In this document: piece by piece, positions 81 to 59,019 of the stretch | Position numbering within the stretch: position 1 is the first letter of the stretch | Layout of the letters: each line of letters begins with the position of its first letter | NCBI GenBank assembly: GCA_025934695.1 | Contig: JAICWS010000001.1 | Location: 1,021,301 to 1,085,300 of the forward strand | DNA length: 64,000 nt | Reading direction: 5' to 3' | From: Alphaproteobacteria bacterium | Lineage (GTDB): Bacteria > Pseudomonadota > Alphaproteobacteria > Micavibrionales > UBA2020 | Notes under the pieces: generated by a model | The model's input: only the letters and a program-made list of their open reading frames with translations | Told to the model about the DNA's origin: nothing | Database searches by the model: none | Translations under genes and position numbers: made by a program

Positions 81-304
81 TTGACATAACGCAAAAGAAT
101 CTGCTATAAACTCCTCCACGCAAGGCGCTCCACCGCGGCAGCTCGATTTACGCCTGTTTCGCGACTGCCGGTATAGCCCTCCCGCCTTTGCAAAAACGGC
201 CAGGAACGACACTATTGTTCATGGCTGTTTTGCGCCTTTCCCTCACGCATTCGCAAACGCCCGGCATGGTTCGCTTCCGCCAACGCAGACGAAGGAGAGC
301 CGCC
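81..304 (+). promoter_or_regulatory. TTGACATAA promoter and structured leader (copy 1)
   Basis: The -35 TTGACA is at 81-86 and the -10 TATAAA at 105-110, with an 18-base spacer. The leader carries the blocks CACGCAAGGC, CGATTTACGCC and GTTTCGCGACTGCCGG seen in other copies. Hairpin 1 pairs GGCAG (137-141) with CTGCC (165-169). Hairpin 2 (190-233) pairs GCAAAA with TTTTGC and GCCA with TGGC. It drives the gene starting at 305. Confidence 0.75.
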
Positions 305-5891: not shown

Positions 5892-6725
5892 CTACTTCCT
5901 GAAACTGATCGGCCGGGACACCCGGGTTGGTTCCTGGAGCACGGTTGCAGCATGGATGACTCTCGCTTTTGTTTCAGGAGATAGACGCAGTTCCTGGGGA
6001 ACTTCATCCCAAGATTCGAACGTGCCGAAGTCGCTCTGTAATATTTCGAAAATTTCGGGGGCACCCTCCAGCGATGTCAGTTGGGTCTCGTCGCAGGAAA
6101 AGATGCCGCCGATGGTGCGTGGCGCATGTTCGAGCGTCGTGAGTTGGTTGTAGGAACAGGAAAAATTGCCCGCGACGGACTGCGGCGCGTGCTCCAGCGT
6201 TTTGAGTTGGTTGTAGGAACAGTAGAAGTCCCCGTTGACGGTCTGGGGCGCGCCTAGAAGCGAAGTCAGCTGATTGTTGTGGCAGTAGAAGCCGCCGCCG
6301 ATGGTCATGGGAGCATGCACCAGCGAGGTCAGCTTGTTATCGGCGCAGAAAAAGATGCCGCCCACGGTCCGTGGCCCCCGCTCCAGCGTTGTAAGTTGAT
6401 TGTGGGAGCAGTAGAAATTGCGGCCTACGGAATGCGGCGCATGCTCCAGCGTAGCAAGTTGGTTGTTTTGGCAGCAAAAGCTGCCGCTGACGGAATGCGG
6501 CGCGCCTTCCAGCGAGGTCAATAGATTCTCGGAGCACCAGAAATCGCCGCTGACACTGACTTTGGAAAGATCAGGCAGTTTAGCCAAGTTCTTCCTGGAA
6601 ATGTCCAGATTCCCTGGTACAAGAATTGAGCCATCGTCTTGCTTGACGTATTTTACGCCCCACGCCTGCAGCGCCTGTTCGGCTTCACCAAGGGCACTGG
6701 CATTTTGATTGAAAGCGGCCTGCAC
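5892..6725 (-). CDS. LRR-like SLEGAP-repeat protein, 277 aa
   Basis: The N-terminal region reads GSILVPGNLDISRKNLAKLP and is followed by at least nine repeats of about 20 residues, of the form NNQLTSLEGAPxxVGGxFxC. These LRR-like repeats should build a solenoid binding surface. After the array comes QSDFGTFESWDEVPQEL, a block shared with the four paralogues in this window, and the tail VSRPISFRK. GTG 6725 is chosen because GAGG precedes it by nine bases; the 12-bp leader hairpin ends at this codon and covers part of that site. A TTG at 6734 is the alternative. It is driven by the promoter at 6860-6889. Confidence 0.8.
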   Translation of the reverse strand: MQAAFNQNASALGEAEQALQAWGVKYVKQDDGSILVPGNLDISRKNLAKLPDLSKVSVSGDFWCSENLLTSLEGAPHSVSGSFCCQNNQLATLEHAPHSVGRNFYCSHNQLTTLERGPRTVGGIFFCADNKLTSLVHAPMTIGGGFYCHNNQLTSLLGAPQTVNGDFYCSYNQLKTLEHAPQSVAGNFSCSYNQLTTLEHAPRTIGGIFSCDETQLTSLEGAPEIFEILQSDFGTFESWDEVPQELRLSPETKARVIHAATVLQEPTRVSRPISFRK

Positions 6726-6889
6726 GCAAAACAACCTCGAAAATTCGCTGATCTCGGTTGTTTTGCGGATCGTGCTGTGGAACCCGGATATGAAACCCTA
6801 AACCATCCGGCACATTCGCCCCGATGCTGAAAAGACAGAGGGAAGCACGCTGCATGCCTTTTATACCCGATTCTGATAGATTATGTCAA
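6726..6889 (-). promoter_or_regulatory. TTGACATAA promoter and structured leader (copy 2)
   Basis: On the minus strand the -35 TTGACA is 6889-6884 and the -10 TATAAA 6865-6860, with an 18-base spacer. Hairpin 1 (6784-6810) pairs CCGGAT with ATCCGG around the loop GTTTAGGGTTTC. Hairpin 2 (6725-6767) is a perfect 12-bp stem, CGCAAAACAACC with GGTTGTTTTGCG, ending at the proposed start codon, so it could gate translation. Confidence 0.75.
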
Positions 6890-6934
6890 ATACAATCTTC
6901 TTCCGAAAAGTTTTGCAAGCGGCAGCGCTGCTTT

Positions 6935-13299: not shown

Positions 13300-13537
13300 T
13301 TGACATAATAGAAGAGAATCGGTATCGTCTTTCCCAAGCAGTGGGCACCACTCCTGCCGGAAGTGTTTAAGTCGGTTTCCCTTCCGGATATGACCCCGCC
13401 AATCTGCAAAACCAACCGTGAAGATCTGATTTTCAGGTTGGTTGTATTCCGGGCGGCTTAGCCCCTCTCCCCTGCAAATATGTCTTCGCCCGGTATCCAG
13501 GCGCGCCGCGAAACGCGCCGATCAACCGGGAGGACAC
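13300..13537 (+). promoter_or_regulatory. TTGACATAA promoter and structured leader (copy 3)
   Basis: TTGACA is 13300-13305 and TATCGT 13323-13328, with a 17-base spacer. The leader begins CCCAAGCAGTGGGCA, as in copy 9. Hairpin 1 (13357-13387) pairs CCGGAA with TTCCGG around GTGTTTAAGTCGGTTTC. Hairpin 2 (13411-13442) pairs ACCAACC with GGTTGGT after TGCAAA. It drives the three-gene ankyrin operon. Confidence 0.75.
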
Positions 13538-14269
13538 ATGTTCGACATCGCCCAAAAATTCAATACCCTCATGCTGCAGCGGCGCACCACCGCGCTCATG
13601 AACGAATTGCGCAAGCGCAAACCCGACCCCGAGAAATGCGAAGACCTCGTCAAAGAACATCCCGAGGTCCTGCTGCAGAAGGATTCTACCGGCATGACGC
13701 CCTGCATGCAGGCCGCCCGCCGGAACATCTTCTGGATCGTCGCTGCGGCGTTCGATGCCGGCGCTTCGGCCGCGTCCGAGGATATCTGGGGCCGCACGGT
13801 CCTTCATTACGCCGCGGAGGGCAGCAATTCACCTCTGCTTTTCCGCTACCTGCAGCGGCAAGGCGCAGACCTGGACGCGGCCGACGCGTCGCGCCTCACC
13901 CCGCTGCATTACGCGGCCGCTCTCAACGCCGAGCAGGCGGTCGAAGCGCTGCTCGCCCTCGGCGCCAATCCCAAAGCGCGCGACTGCCGCGGCGAAACAC
14001 CGCTTCAAATGGCCAAAAGATTGCAGCGGAAGCCCTCGATCCTGGCATTGCTGGCGAAGGACGACGCGGGCAAAGCCCCCGCCGCCGAGGCTTCCGCTGT
14101 TCCTTTTCCTGCCCCGCTGACGGCGGCGAAGACCGCGCTGACGACCGCCTTCCGCAAGATGAATGCGCCCGGGCCCATCAAGGACCGCGCCGCCCACGCG
14201 CAGGCCCTCAGCATGACCACCCAGGCGCTGCTCGCCGTCGACGCGCGGTTGCGCCGCCGCCGGCACTAA
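13538..14269 (+). CDS. Ankyrin-repeat protein, 243 aa (operon gene 1)
   Basis: After a helical N-terminus (residues 1-45) come about four ankyrin repeats with typical signatures (GMTPCMQAARRN, GRTVLHYAAEGSN, RLTPLHYAAALN, GETPLQMAKRL). The C-terminal helical region, ending QALLAVDARLRRRRH, resembles the end of the next gene (QALLEVDMRLRDF), so the two share a C-terminal domain besides the repeats. There is no signal peptide. ATG 13538 has GGGAGGACAC upstream. This is the first of three ankyrin genes separated by 18 and 28 bases and driven by the promoter at 13300. Confidence 0.85.
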   Translation: MFDIAQKFNTLMLQRRTTALMNELRKRKPDPEKCEDLVKEHPEVLLQKDSTGMTPCMQAARRNIFWIVAAAFDAGASAASEDIWGRTVLHYAAEGSNSPLLFRYLQRQGADLDAADASRLTPLHYAAALNAEQAVEALLALGANPKARDCRGETPLQMAKRLQRKPSILALLAKDDAGKAPAAEASAVPFPAPLTAAKTALTTAFRKMNAPGPIKDRAAHAQALSMTTQALLAVDARLRRRRH

Positions 14270-17173: not shown

Positions 17174-17408
17174 TTGACATAACTCTGAGGGGCTGCTAAT
17201 CTCATCCCGCAGTTTGCATATTGCGCCGGATGGTTTTGGTTTTTGTTTCACGTTCGGTTTCCCGCAGCAGGCTGGCAAAACAACCTTGGACCCTGACGAT
17301 TCAAGGTTGTTATATGCCGCATCCGCCTTCACATCCTCCGCCCTGTTCGATGCCCCCGCGGCATGCCTGCGCGTCTGGAATTCATTCCTCTAAACCGGAG
17401 AAACAAAG
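17174..17408 (+). promoter_or_regulatory. TTGACATAA promoter and structured leader (copy 5)
   Basis: TTGACA is 17174-17179 and TAATCT 17197-17202, with a 17-base spacer. The leader contains CGGTTTCCCGCAG and GGCAAAACAACC. Hairpin 2 (17279-17311) pairs AACAACCTTG perfectly with CAAGGTTGTT; the arms differ from other copies but still pair. It drives the gene at 17409. Confidence 0.75.
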
Positions 17409-25713: not shown

Positions 25714-25904
25714 GCATATCCTCCGTCTTAAAAAAAACGCTGTCATGCTGTCTTCGGAATTTTGGGAACAGCCATGACGGTGAAGCGTCGCGGCCATTTT
25801 TGCAGGTTGCACGTTTAACCGGCTGTCGCGAAAGGCGAAATCGACAAGGCCGTGGTCATGCATTGCGTGGAAGAACTATAGCAGCTTTGCTATTATTATG
25901 TCAA
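25714..25904 (-). promoter_or_regulatory. TTGACATAA promoter and structured leader (copy 6)
   Basis: On the minus strand TTGACA is 25904-25899 and TATAGT 25880-25875, with an 18-base spacer. The leader carries CACGCAATGCATGACCACGGC, TCGATTTCGCC and TTTCGCGACAGCCGGTT, as in copies 1, 10 and 13. Hairpin 2 (25767-25798) pairs AATGGCC with GGCTGTT and has an inner CGTC/GACG stem. Confidence 0.75.
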
Positions 25905-28414: not shown

Positions 28415-28532
28415 CGCAACCCCCGCGAAAGCCGGGGTCTGGCATCTATCAGTCCGTTTGGCGGCTCCGTCTATAGAACGGCGCTGCCACGATTGCTGAA
28501 ATATTCTAGACCCCGGCTTTCGCCGGGGTTGC
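28415..28532. repeat. Long palindromic repeat, class 1
   Basis: The arms GCAACCCCCGCGAAAGCCGGGG and CCCCGGCTTTCGCCGGGGTTGC enclose a core with GGCGGCTCCGT. The same core type occurs at 30146, 56361 and 58900. Confidence 0.8.
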
Positions 28533-29250: not shown

Positions 29251-29883
29251 TCACGGCGCGAATGCGGGCGGCCCCGGGTCCGGGGACGGCCCGGCCGGAC
29301 CGGGCGCGGGCGCCGCCGCCAGCGCCTTGCGGGCGACTGTCTTGCTGACGGCCTTGTTGAAGGTGTCGCGCACCTCGGGGAACGTGTCATAGATGGAATC
29401 GAACTTCGCCGAGGCCGCGATCTCGGCAGTGCGGCTATTTAGCAACTCCTTCGCGTCTTTCGCGGCTGCGCGGTTCACCTCGTAAACTTTCTTCTGGTGA
29501 TAACCCAGCTCGTCGAAGATGGATTGCTCGACCGCATCCCGCATCCTGCCGGTCACCAGCGTGTAAAAGCCGACCGTCCCGCCGATCACGAGCAGCGGCA
29601 GGCCGATAACGGGCGCGACGGTCGCGGCAAGTATGCCGCCGCCCAGAATGCTGCCGATCATTTCGGGCAGCATGACGCCCATTTCGATGTTGGCGGCGCG
29701 GCTGCGGCATTCATAGCGCAGCCAGTCGTTGTAGCGCCGGGTGCTGTCCTCGATGCGCAGCATGGCGTCGAGCCGCTCGGCGGGGTCGGTCAGCTTTTGC
29801 GCGGTCGCCAGGTCGCCGGCAAAACCGCGCGCGGTGTCTTCGAGTTTTTTTTCATTACGATAGTTTTTGGGAACGAGAAACAT
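29251..29883 (-). CDS. Membrane protein of unknown function, 210 aa
   Basis: A charged N-terminal region (residues 1-65) precedes two adjacent hydrophobic helices (about 66-105, with GSILGGGILAATVAPVIGLP and LLVIGGTVGFYTLV), then a helical region with a likely coiled coil and a Pro/Ala/Gly-rich tail. No family recognised. AACAGGAGCCCGC precedes ATG 29883. It is the only gene after a leader of the shared type (copy 8). A similar layout, a pair of Gly-rich helices and a Pro-rich tail, is seen at 31335. Confidence 0.65.
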   Translation of the reverse strand: MFLVPKNYRNEKKLEDTARGFAGDLATAQKLTDPAERLDAMLRIEDSTRRYNDWLRYECRSRAANIEMGVMLPEMIGSILGGGILAATVAPVIGLPLLVIGGTVGFYTLVTGRMRDAVEQSIFDELGYHQKKVYEVNRAAAKDAKELLNSRTAEIAASAKFDSIYDTFPEVRDTFNKAVSKTVARKALAAAPAPGPAGPSPDPGPPAFAP

Positions 29884-30035
29884 GCGGGCTCCTGTTAGGT
29901 CATGACCCGGCTGTTTTACAGGGGGCGGAGGCGGACAGGCGGGAAACGATGCCGAAGCAAAAGCGCTCTGTCCCTGATTGTATCCCTGCTTGATGGCGTA
30001 AGGATAGCCTACTGAAGTAATATGGATTGCGTCAA
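29884..30035 (-). promoter_or_regulatory. Divergent TTGACGCAA promoter and degenerate leader (copy 8)
   Basis: On the minus strand TTGACG is 30035-30030 and TAGGCT 30011-30006, with an 18-base spacer. The leader keeps CCTTACGC, TCGTTTCCCGCCTGTCCG and TGTAAAACAGCC, related to the blocks of other copies. It is the most diverged member. Confidence 0.5.
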
Positions 30036-30145
30036 CCCGCCGCGTCATAATATTAAAAGTTGCTCTTGTGTTTCAGCGGGTTATGGCGGGTTTCCGATTT
30101 AACGTAACTCTAGCGCCCGTCCGAAGAGCCGCATCAAAAAATGGT

Positions 30146-30262
30146 GCTACCCCGGCAAAAGCCGGGGTCCAGAATATTTCAGCAAGCGTGGCGGCTCCGT
30201 TCCATGAGCGGTGCCGCCAAACATATGGATAGATACTGGACCCCGGCTTTCGCCGGGGTGGC
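30146..30262. repeat. Long palindromic repeat, class 1
   Basis: GCTACCCCGGCAAAAGCCGGGG and CCCCGGCTTTCGCCGGGGTGGC flank a core containing GTGGCGGCTCCGTTC and GGTGCCGCCA. Confidence 0.8.
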
Positions 30263-30328
30263 AAGTTTGTGGTGAAGGAAAATGGATCCAGCGGAAATGA
30301 TAGACGGGGCAATTTTCCGAAAAACGAC

Positions 30329-30547
30329 TTGACATATTATGCCAGCCCGCTATGATCGCGCCCAAGCAGTGGGCATTCCGCCGCCGGGTGTGTTTAAGAG
30401 GTTTCCCGCCCGTCCCCTTCCGCCAACCTGCAAAACCAATTTGAACGCGCTTTGTTCTGATTGGTCTTGCGATGAAACTTCCTGAAAAGTTTCCAGCCAT
30501 CCATTGAACGGCGCCCGCGTCTAAAACTTTTACAATGGAGAAATGCG
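30329..30547 (+). promoter_or_regulatory. TTGACATAT promoter and structured leader (copy 9)
   Basis: TTGACA is 30329-30334 and TATGAT 30351-30356, with a 16-base spacer. The leader opens CCCAAGCAGTGGGCA, as copy 3, and has GTGTTTAAGAGGTTTCCCG. Hairpin 2 (30435-30465) pairs ACCAAT with ATTGGT after CTGCAAA. It drives the genes at 30548 and 30885. Confidence 0.75.
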
Positions 30548-31877: not shown

Positions 31878-32098
31878 TCCTGATCTCCCCTGTCACGGTT
31901 GGATGTCCGGATGTTCGCCTTTGGAAGAGGATCACAGCCTGGACACCTGTCTCCTGCCCCAATGGCGGCGACATATGTTCGGCTGTTTTTGCGGGAAGCA
32001 CATGATAACCGGCGGTCGCGAAACAAGCGGAAAATCGACTGGCCGTGGTTGTGCCTTGCGTGAGTACGACATTACATGGATTCTATGTATTATGTCAA
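31878..32098 (-). promoter_or_regulatory. TTGACATAA promoter and structured leader (copy 10)
   Basis: On the minus strand TTGACA is 32098-32093 and TAATGT 32074-32069, with an 18-base spacer. The leader has CACGCAAGGCACAACCACGGC, GTCGATTTTCCGCTTGTTTC and GCGACCGCCGGTT. In hairpin 1 GTCG and GGC pair with CGAC and GCC. CGCAAAAACAGCC follows. Confidence 0.75.
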
Positions 32099-33417: not shown

Positions 33418-34479
33418 TCAGACGGCGGCAGGTTTCGCTTTCGGCTTCGCGGGCGCGGCCGCGACTTTCACGGGTGCGGGCGAAGATGGATGCGGCATGG
33501 CGTTTTCATACAATTGCGCCCGGCGCAGCCCTAAGGGAGAGAGCCCCTGCTGCGTCAGATCGAAATTGCAGATCTTCTGCTTGTCGGGATCGTCGCAGTC
33601 GGCGCGCTTGCCTGCGGCGCGCTGCGCGTCGCTGAGCGCGCGCTCGGCATCGCGCAGGACGAGGGAAATCTGGAGCCCGTCGGCTTCCTTGTTGGCGGCC
33701 TGCATCTGCGCCGCCGTCGGAATGGGCCGGTGATTGAAAACCGCGTCGAGGTAAAGCACGTCGTCATGGTCCGTGTCGCCGGGCGAACGGGCTTTGGCGT
33801 TGATGAAAAGCTGCGCGAGGCCCGGCATTTTCCGCGCGGCGGAAAGCACTTCGATCGACGCCGCATCCGCATCGGCCTCGGCCATCAGCCCCGTGAATTT
33901 CGCATTCGCGTCGCTGCAGTGGCGTATTTCGTGCAGCAGTGCCTGCTGTATATTCTGCGCCTGCTTGTGGGCGTAGTTGGCGGTATGCAGGTAGATGCCG
34001 CAGGAATAGCCGTGCGGCCCCTGGATGCGGTGCGTATAAGCGCCGATGTTGGGGTTGTGCAGACGGTAGCGCCAGTTGCCCCAGGCGCCCTGCACGCCCG
34101 TGTCGAACAGCGCATGCGCCGTCCCCGGCAGCGTGTCGGTGCGCACATAGATGCGCTTGCCGGGCGCCAGCTCCTGCACGAGCTTCGGGTCGAGGCCCTC
34201 TTTCGCCACCATCTGTTCGGCGGTCGGAAACGCCGCCTCGCCGATCTTCGGCCAGGCCTGCGCGGCGAACGACGACGTGCTGCCATAGGCCTGCCCCACG
34301 GCGGCGGTCAGCGCGGCAAAAAGGACGAGTTTCTTGAGCCTGAAGTGGCGCACCGCGCGGCCCCAGCGCGCGTGCCGCTCCTTGCGCCGCGCTTTCGCCT
34401 CGATGGCGTTCGCTTCCTCGGCTTCATCGCGCGCGGGTTGGTGTTTTTTCGAAATGGTATCGGATTCTGCTTCATTCAT
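33418..34479 (-). CDS. Membrane-anchored zincin-like metalloprotease, 353 aa
   Basis: A cytoplasmic charged region (residues 1-48) and a membrane helix (about 50-66) precede a likely periplasmic domain. HEIRH (183-187) matches HEXXH and MAEADAD (E201) may give the third zinc ligand. Shared blocks with 12244-13251 include LAPGKRIYVRTD, LLHEIRHC and AVFNHRPIP. The Pro/Ala/Lys-rich C-terminus is variable. ATG 34479 is preceded by GGAGG, part of which is covered by a leader hairpin (34483-34513). An ankyrin gene follows in the same operon. Confidence 0.72.
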   Translation of the reverse strand: MNEAESDTISKKHQPARDEAEEANAIEAKARRKERHARWGRAVRHFRLKKLVLFAALTAAVGQAYGSTSSFAAQAWPKIGEAAFPTAEQMVAKEGLDPKLVQELAPGKRIYVRTDTLPGTAHALFDTGVQGAWGNWRYRLHNPNIGAYTHRIQGPHGYSCGIYLHTANYAHKQAQNIQQALLHEIRHCSDANAKFTGLMAEADADAASIEVLSAARKMPGLAQLFINAKARSPGDTDHDDVLYLDAVFNHRPIPTAAQMQAANKEADGLQISLVLRDAERALSDAQRAAGKRADCDDPDKQKICNFDLTQQGLSPLGLRRAQLYENAMPHPSSPAPVKVAAAPAKPKAKPAAV

Positions 34480-34626
34480 TGCAAGCAACCTCCATTGGCG
34501 TTGGCGGTTGCTTTCCCAGGCTTGCGTATCAGGCCAGAAGTCGGAGTGAAGCGTAACGAAAAACGCCGGGCCGCAAAGGTGCATCCTGTACCCGGATTTT
34601 ATAACCCATTCCGCGCACTATGTCAA
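34480..34626 (-). promoter_or_regulatory. TTGACATAG promoter and leader hairpin (copy 11)
   Basis: On the minus strand TTGACA is 34626-34621 and TATAAA 34603-34598, with a 17-base spacer. A leader hairpin (34513-34483) pairs AAGCAACC with GGTTGCTT; its 3' arm overlaps the GGAGG ribosome site (34493-34489) of the zincin gene. It is divergent from copy 12, with 64 bases between the -35 boxes. Confidence 0.7.
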
Positions 34627-36184: not shown

Positions 36185-36410
36185 CTCGCGTTTTCTCCTT
36201 CCGGCGCTACAAAATCTTCGGGATGTCCTGAGGCTGAAAACGAAAGCGAAAGCTTTCCAAACAGAAAAACAGCCACGGACATATTTTAAGTCCCGGCCGT
36301 TTTTGCGGATTGCACGTTATACCGGGCGCCGCGAAACATGCGGAAAATCGGCGCGCCGTGGTCGTGCATCGCGTAAGGAAAACTATAGCGGATTTTAAGT
36401 ATTATGTCAA
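36185..36410 (-). promoter_or_regulatory. TTGACATAA promoter and structured leader (copy 13)
   Basis: On the minus strand TTGACA is 36410-36405 and TATAGT 36387-36382, with a 17-base spacer. The leader has TTACGCGATGCACGACCACGG, CCGATTTTCCGCATGTTTCG and CGGCGCCCGGTATAACGTGC. Hairpin 1 arms are GGCGC and GCGCC, different from copies 1 and 6 but still paired. Hairpin 2 (36265-36304) pairs AAAAACGGCC with GGCTGTTTTT plus an inner GGAC/GTCC. Confidence 0.78.
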
Positions 36411-49219: not shown

Positions 49220-49354
49220 TTGACATAATCACCACGTTTCTGCTATAAACTCTTCAGGCCAATGCAGTCCACGGCGGCGCGTGTTTAGGGTTTCCCGCGT
49301 CCCGGTAAAGCAAGGTTAAAACATCCGCCAGATTTTTCATGGAGGGTGTTCGAC
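49220..49354 (+). promoter_or_regulatory. TTGACATAA promoter and leader (copy 16)
   Basis: TTGACA is 49220-49225 and TATAAA 49244-49249, with an 18-base spacer. The leader has CCACGGCGGCGCGTGTTTAGG followed by GTTTCCCGCGTCCCGG (hairpin 1, GCGCG/CGCG arms); hairpin 2 is not evident. GGAGG precedes ATG 49355. Confidence 0.7.
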
Positions 49355-50056
49355 ATGCTTGGCATTTTCAAAAAAGTCGCCGGTAAATTCGGCAAGGAAA
49401 AAAATCCGCAGCTCGCGGAAATCAAAAAGCTCAAACTGCCCTACGACGTTGCGGCAGACGGTACGATCACCGTTCACGGCGATGTCGACCTGTCGCGCCG
49501 CGGGCTTTATTCCCTGCCCAACCTGTCGGACGTGACTGTCGAGGGCAATTTTTCCTGCGAAGGCAATCACCTGATGACGCTGCACGGCGCGCCGGCGAAA
49601 ATCACGGGCCGGTTCGATTGCTCGGGCAGCGAACTGGTCAACCTCGACGGCGGGCCCAAGGAAGTCGGCGGGCTATATGACTGTTCGCGCAACGAACTGG
49701 GGGACCTGCGGGGCGCCCCGCGCGAAGTTGCGGCGTTCGATTGCAGCAGCAACAGCGGTTACATGAGCCTTTATGGCGCACCGAAAAAAGTCACCGGCGA
49801 CTTCCGCTGCAACTATTGCTCGATCTCGACGCTGATGGATGCGCCGCAGGACGTCACCGGCACTTTCGCCGTCGTCGGGGCGGAACTGCAAACGCTCCAC
49901 GGCGTGCCGCAAAACTGCGCCCGCGTCGTCAGCGACTTCGGCAATTTCGACTCGCCGAAAGACATACCTTCCAATCTCGGCGGCCCCGCGCCCGCGCGCG
50001 AGATCGCGCCGCGCCAAACTTATCCTCAGCCCCCGGCCCCGCTGGGCGGTCCCTGA
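49355..50056 (+). CDS. LRR-like repeat protein, 233 aa (tandem gene 1)
   Basis: The N-terminal region has LPYDVAADGTITVHGDVDLS then SLPNLSDVTVEGNFSCEGNH, followed by repeats of about 20 residues (LMTLHGAPAKITGRFDCSGS, LVNLDGGPKEVGGLYDCSRN, GYMSLYGAPKKVTGDFRCNY). The array ends with VVSDFGNFDSPKDIPSNL, the block shared with all paralogues. The tail is Pro-rich. It is the first of three tandem LRR-like genes from promoter copy 16. GGAGGGTGTTCGAC precedes ATG 49355. Confidence 0.82.
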   Translation: MLGIFKKVAGKFGKEKNPQLAEIKKLKLPYDVAADGTITVHGDVDLSRRGLYSLPNLSDVTVEGNFSCEGNHLMTLHGAPAKITGRFDCSGSELVNLDGGPKEVGGLYDCSRNELGDLRGAPREVAAFDCSSNSGYMSLYGAPKKVTGDFRCNYCSISTLMDAPQDVTGTFAVVGAELQTLHGVPQNCARVVSDFGNFDSPKDIPSNLGGPAPAREIAPRQTYPQPPAPLGGP

Positions 50057-56360: not shown

Positions 56361-56480
56361 TGCAACCCCGGCGAAAGCCGGGGTCCGGCCTGTATCCGTG
56401 CGTTTGGCGGCTCCGCCCTGCAGAACGGAGCCGCCACGCATGCTGATATATTCTAGACCCCGGCGTTCGCCGGGGTTGCA
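56361..56480. repeat. Long palindromic repeat, class 1
   Basis: TGCAACCCCGGCGAAAGCC and GGCGTTCGCCGGGGTTGCA with a perfect inner pair GGCGGCTCCG/CGGAGCCGCC. Confidence 0.85.
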
Positions 56481-58899: not shown

Positions 58900-59019
58900 C
58901 GCAACCCCCGGCGCAAGCCGGGGTCTAAAATATTTCCGTCGGCTGGGTGGCTCCGTTCTTGGAATGGAACCGCCATACATACGGATACATGCAAGACCCC
59001 GGCTTTCGCCGGGGTTGCG
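58900..59019. repeat. Long palindromic repeat, class 1
   Basis: CGCAACCCCCGGCGCAAGCCGGGG and CCCCGGCTTTCGCCGGGGTTGCG with a GGTGGCTCCGTTCT core, between convergent genes. Confidence 0.8.

Follow-up and report, generated by a model that had tools for sequence, protein, structure and literature searches.

A lineage-restricted two-hairpin leader RNA whose second hairpin ends at the start codon of an LRR-like gene and of other genes: a candidate translation gate

The LRR-like gene at 5892 is preceded by an RNA leader of two hairpins, H1 and H2, and the second hairpin ends at the GTG start codon of the gene. The hairpin is the second half of an element (H1, a linker and H2) that is repeated through the genome and occurs 11 times, the focal copy included, in the window, by which we mean the whole 64-kb stretch of DNA that was analysed. 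We predict this element to be a lineage-specific 5′ leader, in which a common promoter would be followed by H1 with its GUUUC loop and then by H2, and which would precede many accessory genes that are mostly unrelated to one another. The anatomy of the leader, its family, the covariation of its helices, the position of the start codon and the predicted burial of the Shine-Dalgarno (SD) region were established computationally. Control of translation, the pseudoknot described below and its trigger are what we infer from them. The reading we favour, with a little more confidence than doubt, is that H2 acts as a gate at the translation start and is opened by pairing between GUUU in the H1 loop and AAAC in H2. 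For the focal gene such a gate is plausible, though it would not be peculiar to that gene. The coordinates of the features are collected in Table 1.

Table 1. Features of the focal leader and gene, and three other leader copies within the window (positions are those of the window)
Feature	Position	Strand	Remark
Extended -35 box TTTGACATAAT of the common promoter	6880..6890	-	TTGACA starts at 6889
-10 box TATAAA	6860..6865	-	inferred transcript start near 6853
H1-H2 element, focal copy	6725..6821	-	62.3 bits, E 2.6e-12 (copy also in the model alignment); second model 60.1 bits
H1 5′ arm CCGGAT	6805..6810	-	double-sided changes at all 9 H1 model pairs
H1 loop, first U tract UUU	6800..6802	-	aligned to positions 20-22, gap at 23
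H1 loop, GUUUC	6792..6796	-	GUUU complementary to AAAC in the H2 5′ arm; possible pseudoknot
H1 3′ arm AUCCGG	6784..6789	-	covarying H1 helix
H2 5′ arm CGCAAAACAACC	6756..6767	-	perfect pairing with 6736-6725; near-invariant AAAAC at 6764-6760
H2 3′ arm GGTTGTTTTGCG	6725..6736	-	bridges the SD-to-start gap; H2 helices covary
Shine-Dalgarno GAGG	6735..6738	-	half buried in H2; SD-like strings enriched in start-adjacent H2s
LRR-like gene, 277-aa protein with 21-residue repeats	5892..6725 (stop included)	-	starts at GTG 6725
Start-adjacent copy	49262..49355	+	before an LRR-like gene, ATG 49355
Start-adjacent copy, H1 loop GCUU compensated by AAAGC in H2	34479..34582	-	gene starts at ATG 34479
Distal copy	13345..13447	+	ankyrin-repeat gene starts at 13538

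The 12-bp stem that the first-pass annotation described in front of this gene is real. On the minus strand its two arms are perfect complements and enclose a loop of 19 nt. The isolated hairpin has a computed energy of −20 kcal/mol, compared with −9.3 ± 2.6 kcal/mol for 200 dinucleotide shuffles, none of which was as low (z −4.1). The start codon occupies 6725-6723, and its first G doubles as the last base of the stem. The GAGG lies 9 nt ahead of the GTG, and only its GG is paired in H2. The stem contains these two bases, the entire spacer and the first base of the start codon, which agrees with the earlier description of a 3′ arm that ends at the GTG and takes in part of the ribosome site. 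The stability of the leader with the start region as a whole (169 nt) is ordinary (z −0.81, with 41 of 200 shuffles equally low), thus the signal lies in the hairpin and its conservation and not in the overall folding energy.

The reading frame upstream of the GTG is open only as far as a TAG at 6800-6798. The sole alternative ATG, GTG or TTG in this stretch is a TTG at 6734, which touches the GAGG. The start that had been proposed at 6725 is supported by homology, since this is the column at which paralogous proteins start (MQAAFN, MQKNFN and MRNAFK).

A covariance model was built from an alignment of 34 copies. At E ≤ 0.01 it gave 66 matches in the genome itself, 3 of which are antisense mirrors of the palindromic H2. 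At the same threshold five further members of the genus had 5 to 14 matches apiece, and 3 of the 12 genomes sampled from the rest of the family had 1 to 4. Outside the family, neither model matched any of the 17 genomes of the order that were searched. Overall, 9 of 35 genomes carried matches to the first model. The second model gave 70 matches in the own genome (antisense mirrors counted), 6-18 for each member of the genus and at least one in 8 of the 12 family genomes. A class-wide search of 289 genomes, with stricter filters and 14 candidates scored per genome, returned besides the own genome two others with one weak match each (E 5e-4 and 8e-4), which are probably due to chance. From the 117 matches, 2 duplicates due to an overlapping locus and 4 antisense-mirror rows were removed. 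The 111 copies analysed comprise 64 from the own genome and 47 from relatives; of the 50 matches in relatives, 1 was left out and 2 failed E ≤ 0.001.

The leader is a lineage-restricted structured RNA without a match in Rfam release 15 at the loci searched. That release gave no match at the gathering threshold in the 64-kb window and nothing at E ≤ 10 for 6650-6920. At 12 further loci there were 7 matches at E ≤ 1, all of which score under the gathering thresholds and lie outside the element. A literature search by terms, covering titles and abstract openings and only thinly the subscription journals, found no description of the leader. Searched as DNA, the focal leader matched the genome at 8 sites, at 7 of which the match was partial. 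A phage origin was considered and rejected; the pattern GTTTCNCG..AGC..AAAACARCC matched 59 viral stretches, none of which fit the model at E ≤ 0.1. A mobile repeat as the whole explanation is also not favoured. What is conserved is a promoter box, a loop, an A tract and pairing, the stems differ with compensating changes, and the downstream proteins are diverse. The copies in the window that are not in Table 1 are at 127-234 (+), 17214-17316 (+), 25762-25861 (-), 29874-29983 (-), 30371-30470 (+), 31931-32054 (-) and 36263-36367 (-). The ten non-focal copies in the window precede mostly uncharacterised small genes.

Compensating changes are found in both hairpins. In alignment A2, which was fitted to the model structure and favours it, 79.3% of the model-pair cells are paired across 114 distinct rows (drawn from all 117 rows, with 3 antisense mirrors among them). 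The number of cells changed on both sides is 264, compared with 103 ± 11 in shuffled alignments, a control that ignores relatedness (0 of 500 as high). The 111 cleaned rows give nearly the same picture, with 79.1% paired and 254 of 2322 cells changed on both sides. When the pairing partners are slid by 1-3 columns, every pairing measure drops. The five column pairs that covary most strongly are all helix pairs of the model. Alignment A1, made from sequence alone, already has 14 double changes at one H2 pair. Judged from these alignments, H1-H2 can be regarded as a structured leader, with a conserved structure and compensating changes.

The common promoter is marked by an 11-base box, TTTGACATAAT, which was found with at least 8 of 11 matches before 105 of the 111 copies (62 of the 64 in the own genome); random windows score as well in 8.2% of cases. 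The median distance from box to element is 44 nt, and in 64 of the 105 copies the best -10 match lies 24-25 nt from where the box begins. A generic promoter scan missed the focal promoter because it accepts a -10 hexamer only if this ends in T. The inferred transcript start would thus lie just before H1 in most copies, with about 30 extra bases between them in the focal copy. By eye, an extra small hairpin is seen between the -10 box and H1 at 6811-6859, where it is weak, and likewise at L096, L097, L099 and L003. A frame of at least 45 codons starts between −12 and +250 nt from the element end in 109 of the 111 copies (raw count). The element therefore has a promoter box ahead of it and a coding frame behind it, all on one strand, as is expected for a cis-acting leader.

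Within the leader the order is H1, whose loop carries a near-invariant UUU and GUUUC, then the linker, then AAAAC and the remainder of H2. Consensus positions 21-23 in the H1 loop are U in 97, 110 and 104 of the 111 copies, and the bases of GUUUC are conserved in 106 (G), 108, 110 and 110 (U) and 109 (C) copies. A 5′ end of this kind could be protective, with the two hairpins shielding the mRNA from decay and the closeness of the start codon being incidental. The transcript start that the box places just ahead of H1 in most copies would suit such a role, as would retention of the element where the assigned start is 20-130 nt or more downstream. We consider it unlikely. Start codons and ATGs cluster at the H2 end, SD-like strings occur in start-adjacent H2s, and the near-invariant loop and A tract surpass what a plain protective stem needs.

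The genes behind the leader have little in common. Clustering of the 107 downstream proteins yields 79 groups, and 68 of these have one member. A Pfam search with 30 of the 61 proteins from the own genome (LRR members excluded) left 24 without a match at E ≤ 0.01; the remaining matches are to ankyrin (3), a weak TPR, a weak MORN_2/DUF6745 (both under the cut-off) and a NAMPT-like enzyme. No common pathway was found among the downstream proteins examined. The assignment of the NAMPT-like gene to its leader is doubtful, because a promoter box of its own lies between them. At this locus (L162:309-423) the leader has an 11-bp perfect H2 that ends at the ATG of a 35-codon frame, and the second box, TTGACATAAT, follows the leader ahead of the NAMPT-like gene.

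An element shared by dozens of mostly unrelated genes, with loop bases and an A tract that are near-invariant beyond the requirements of pairing, could be a binding site for a protein or a small molecule. The position of H2 would then turn binding into different outputs. This is possible, though we hold it with reserve; no ligand or binding gene is indicated, and the examined downstream proteins give no shared pathway.

The first-pass annotation had stated that in other copies the hairpin lies well upstream of the start. This holds for 83 of 109 copies, in which the start is more than 14 nt past the H2 end (distal), but not for 18 of 109, the focal copy included, in which it lies −5 to +4 nt from that end (start-adjacent; 9 of 63 in the own genome and 9 of 46 in relatives). 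In these counts the starts were chosen by a simple score and not individually inspected, and the one assigned to L107 is probably too far upstream. Six copies, with starts at +5 to +14, fall between the two classes. L106 and the window copy at 29874 (both at −10) were excluded from the class tests, and 2 of the 111 copies have no candidate start.

The layout with the start at the hairpin end is associated with the ribosome site. Of the 18 start-adjacent copies, 13 have an SD-like string within H2, compared with 7 of the 83 distal ones (Fisher p = 5.5e-8). The predicted probability that the SD region is unpaired is 0.19 in the 18 start-adjacent copies versus 0.46 in 57 control genes (p = 6.5e-7). 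SD accessibility in the 83 distal copies is not significantly different from the controls (p = 0.18). The SD is predicted to be more paired than in ordinary genes in the start-adjacent copies only, which is the pattern of an SD-sequestering gate. The suggestion that the focal hairpin could act directly on translation gains from this burial and from the SD-like strings in H2. The burial does not extend to the start codons as a class, which are not significantly less accessible in the 18 start-adjacent copies than in the controls (0.44 versus 0.51, p = 0.32), nor is the layout unique to the focal gene. On average, the H2s of the start-adjacent copies are weaker (−12.6 kcal/mol) than those of the 51 distal copies whose H2 end has no ATG (−16.1 kcal/mol, p = 0.008).

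Among the 18 start-adjacent copies, the focal one has the most stable H2 and the most buried start codon (0.03 unpaired, computed). Between 10 and 50 °C the calculated accessibility of its SD stays level, and with an H2 of −20 kcal/mol the gate would need active opening. The ROSE and FourU RNA thermometers are leader hairpins that sequester the SD. The focal hairpin resembles them in that it overlaps the SD and ends at the start codon. The leader differs from them in having two hairpins, a near-invariant loop and A tract, mostly unrelated genes and, for the focal copy, no computed melting. An H2 that melts on warming and frees the SD would be consistent with the paired SD region of the start-adjacent copies, but we regard a thermometer as highly improbable for the family and reject it for the focal copy, since no melting is computed between 10 and 50 °C. 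Strong sequence conservation of a loop and an A tract is not known as a thermometer trait.

Potential start codons are also found at the H2 end of distal copies. ATG is enriched 3.2-fold there (34 of 764 positions, p = 8e-9), and ATA, ATC and ATT are not enriched. GTG and TTG are enriched as well, with TTG being confounded by the GTTTTG composition of the arm. In 32 of the 83 distal copies (21 of 50 in the own genome, 11 of 33 in relatives) the ATG at the H2 end opens a short upstream frame; in windows of equal size further down, an ATG is present in 14%. SD-like strings are scarce in the H2 of these copies (3 of 32). The TGA of the upstream frame overlaps the main ATG (ATGA) in 8 of the 32, compared with 2.6 expected (0 of 1000 simulations). 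This overlap is similar to translational coupling through a leader peptide. The short frames differ from a leader peptide in having no common sequence by eye.

The remaining 51 of 109 copies have a distal main start and no ATG at the H2 end, so that H2 must act otherwise there or use other starts. Most copies retain the hairpin with the main start elsewhere, and thus gating of the main start is not the only role of H2. The adjacent and distal layouts interchange, as is shown by apparent orthologs in two genomes of the genus, where the start is at the H2 end in L138 and 61 nt later in L157.

We propose that H2 is tied to a translation start, its 3′ arm often bearing or abutting the SD and ending at the start codon. 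For the focal gene and 17 others the start at the H2 end would be that of the main gene. For the 32 further copies it would be that of the short upstream frame, which may sometimes be coupled to the main gene. A closed H2 would keep the ribosome site shut. Opening would take place when GUUU of the H1 loop captures AAAC of the H2 5′ arm, perhaps during RNA synthesis or through a helper factor.

The complementarity of these two segments is well kept. At the four positions, 105 of 109, 106 of 110, 110 of 110 and 108 of 110 rows can pair. The A tract is conserved in 100, 107, 110 and 102 of the 111 copies and its partners in H2 in 57, 77, 93 and 94. The A tract is better conserved than its H2 partners, hence pairing within H2 alone cannot explain it. 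The H1 loop reads GCUU in two copies, and both carry AAAGC in H2. In one of these two, L185, the change in the H1 loop is matched, but the H2 partner is unchanged and the pairing there is only a wobble. L113 has AAAGC in H2 beside an unchanged H1 loop. In the alignment, 97.7% of the pseudoknot cells are paired, compared with 97.3% in shuffles and at most 75.2% in slid versions. Cells changed on both sides number 2, versus 0.1 in shuffles (1 of 500 has as many), a count that was computed on all 117 rows and depends on two sequences; slides of +1 and +2 give 3 and 4. The GUUU/AAAC pairing, on thin covariation, is suggestive of a switch between the H1 loop and H2.

The SAM-II and preQ1-II riboswitches and the ribosomal protein S15 leaders are translational systems based on pseudoknots. 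The leader described here shares with them its shortness and a possible pairing of a loop with a flanking segment that would compete with pairing of the SD region. It differs in that it has no Rfam match at E ≤ 10 and in that the examined downstream proteins do not belong to one pathway.

In the computed fold, freeing the A tract costs approximately 12 kcal/mol (−54.2 to −42.4), which in this model is likely to exceed what a 4-bp pseudoknot would repay. With the closed H2 favoured to this extent, the open state would have to be kinetic or assisted. One version of a kinetic opening is a lineage-wide timer. On the nascent RNA the H1 loop would grab the A tract, perhaps by building a small U-A.U triple helix that includes the second U tract; the start at the H2 end would stay open until the H2 3′ arm emerges and refolds. 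We consider this quite unlikely. If it were true, dozens of accessory repeat and orphan proteins would be translated only from transcripts that are young or bound by a factor. Near-invariance of the first U tract would be compatible with a U-A.U triple helix, which is speculation. Such a triple helix is formed by ENE-type elements (MALAT1), and the leader is similar to these in having two U tracts in the loop of a stem and an A tract downstream. It differs in that few triples are possible and in that its A tract also pairs in H2. ENE-type triple helices are not known from bacteria, and a literature search by terms found none there.

An A tract, a stem and a U tract also look like an intrinsic terminator. 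H2 could then attenuate transcription, terminating unless the H1 loop, as a possible antiterminator, holds the A tract. We judge this very unlikely. The conservation of the U residues declines along the arm (94, 93, 77 and 57 of 111), the focal stem is A-T rich, and H2 was not called by a terminator scan, which allows loops of up to 8 nt and so could not have reported one of 19 nt.

With H2 as a gate, the leader at about 64 loci, mostly uncharacterised genes that include LRR-like and ankyrin-repeat ones, would be a common post-transcriptional switch for an accessory gene set. One trigger would give access to the roles of many uncharacterised genes. The adjacent, upstream-frame and distal layouts form a natural series in which the leader would move between direct gating and coupled translation.

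The protein encoded by the focal gene scores 24.9 bits against Pfam LRR_4, under the cut-off of 27 bits. It gave 34 protein matches in its own genome, in places several per gene. Ten members of the LRR group carry the leader, and 6 of these are start-adjacent. The paralogs L041, L042 and L046/L053 have the same promoter box (TTGACATAAT or TTGACATAAC) and a short 5′ leader that lacks H1-H2. The closest named LRR relative, with 49% identity, is in one Alphaproteobacteria MAG, where no H1-H2 element was found in the stretch examined. Vibrio phages and 735-kb records of uncultured phages also contain relatives of the focal protein; those in large phages (PP083314.1, PP083315.1, LR756501.1 and LR756503.1) have 31-52% identity. 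The window also contains long imperfect palindromes on CCCCGGCGAAAGCCGGGGT, which are MITE- or REP-like, at 28416-28532, 30145-30263, 56361-56480, 58906-59014 and other places.
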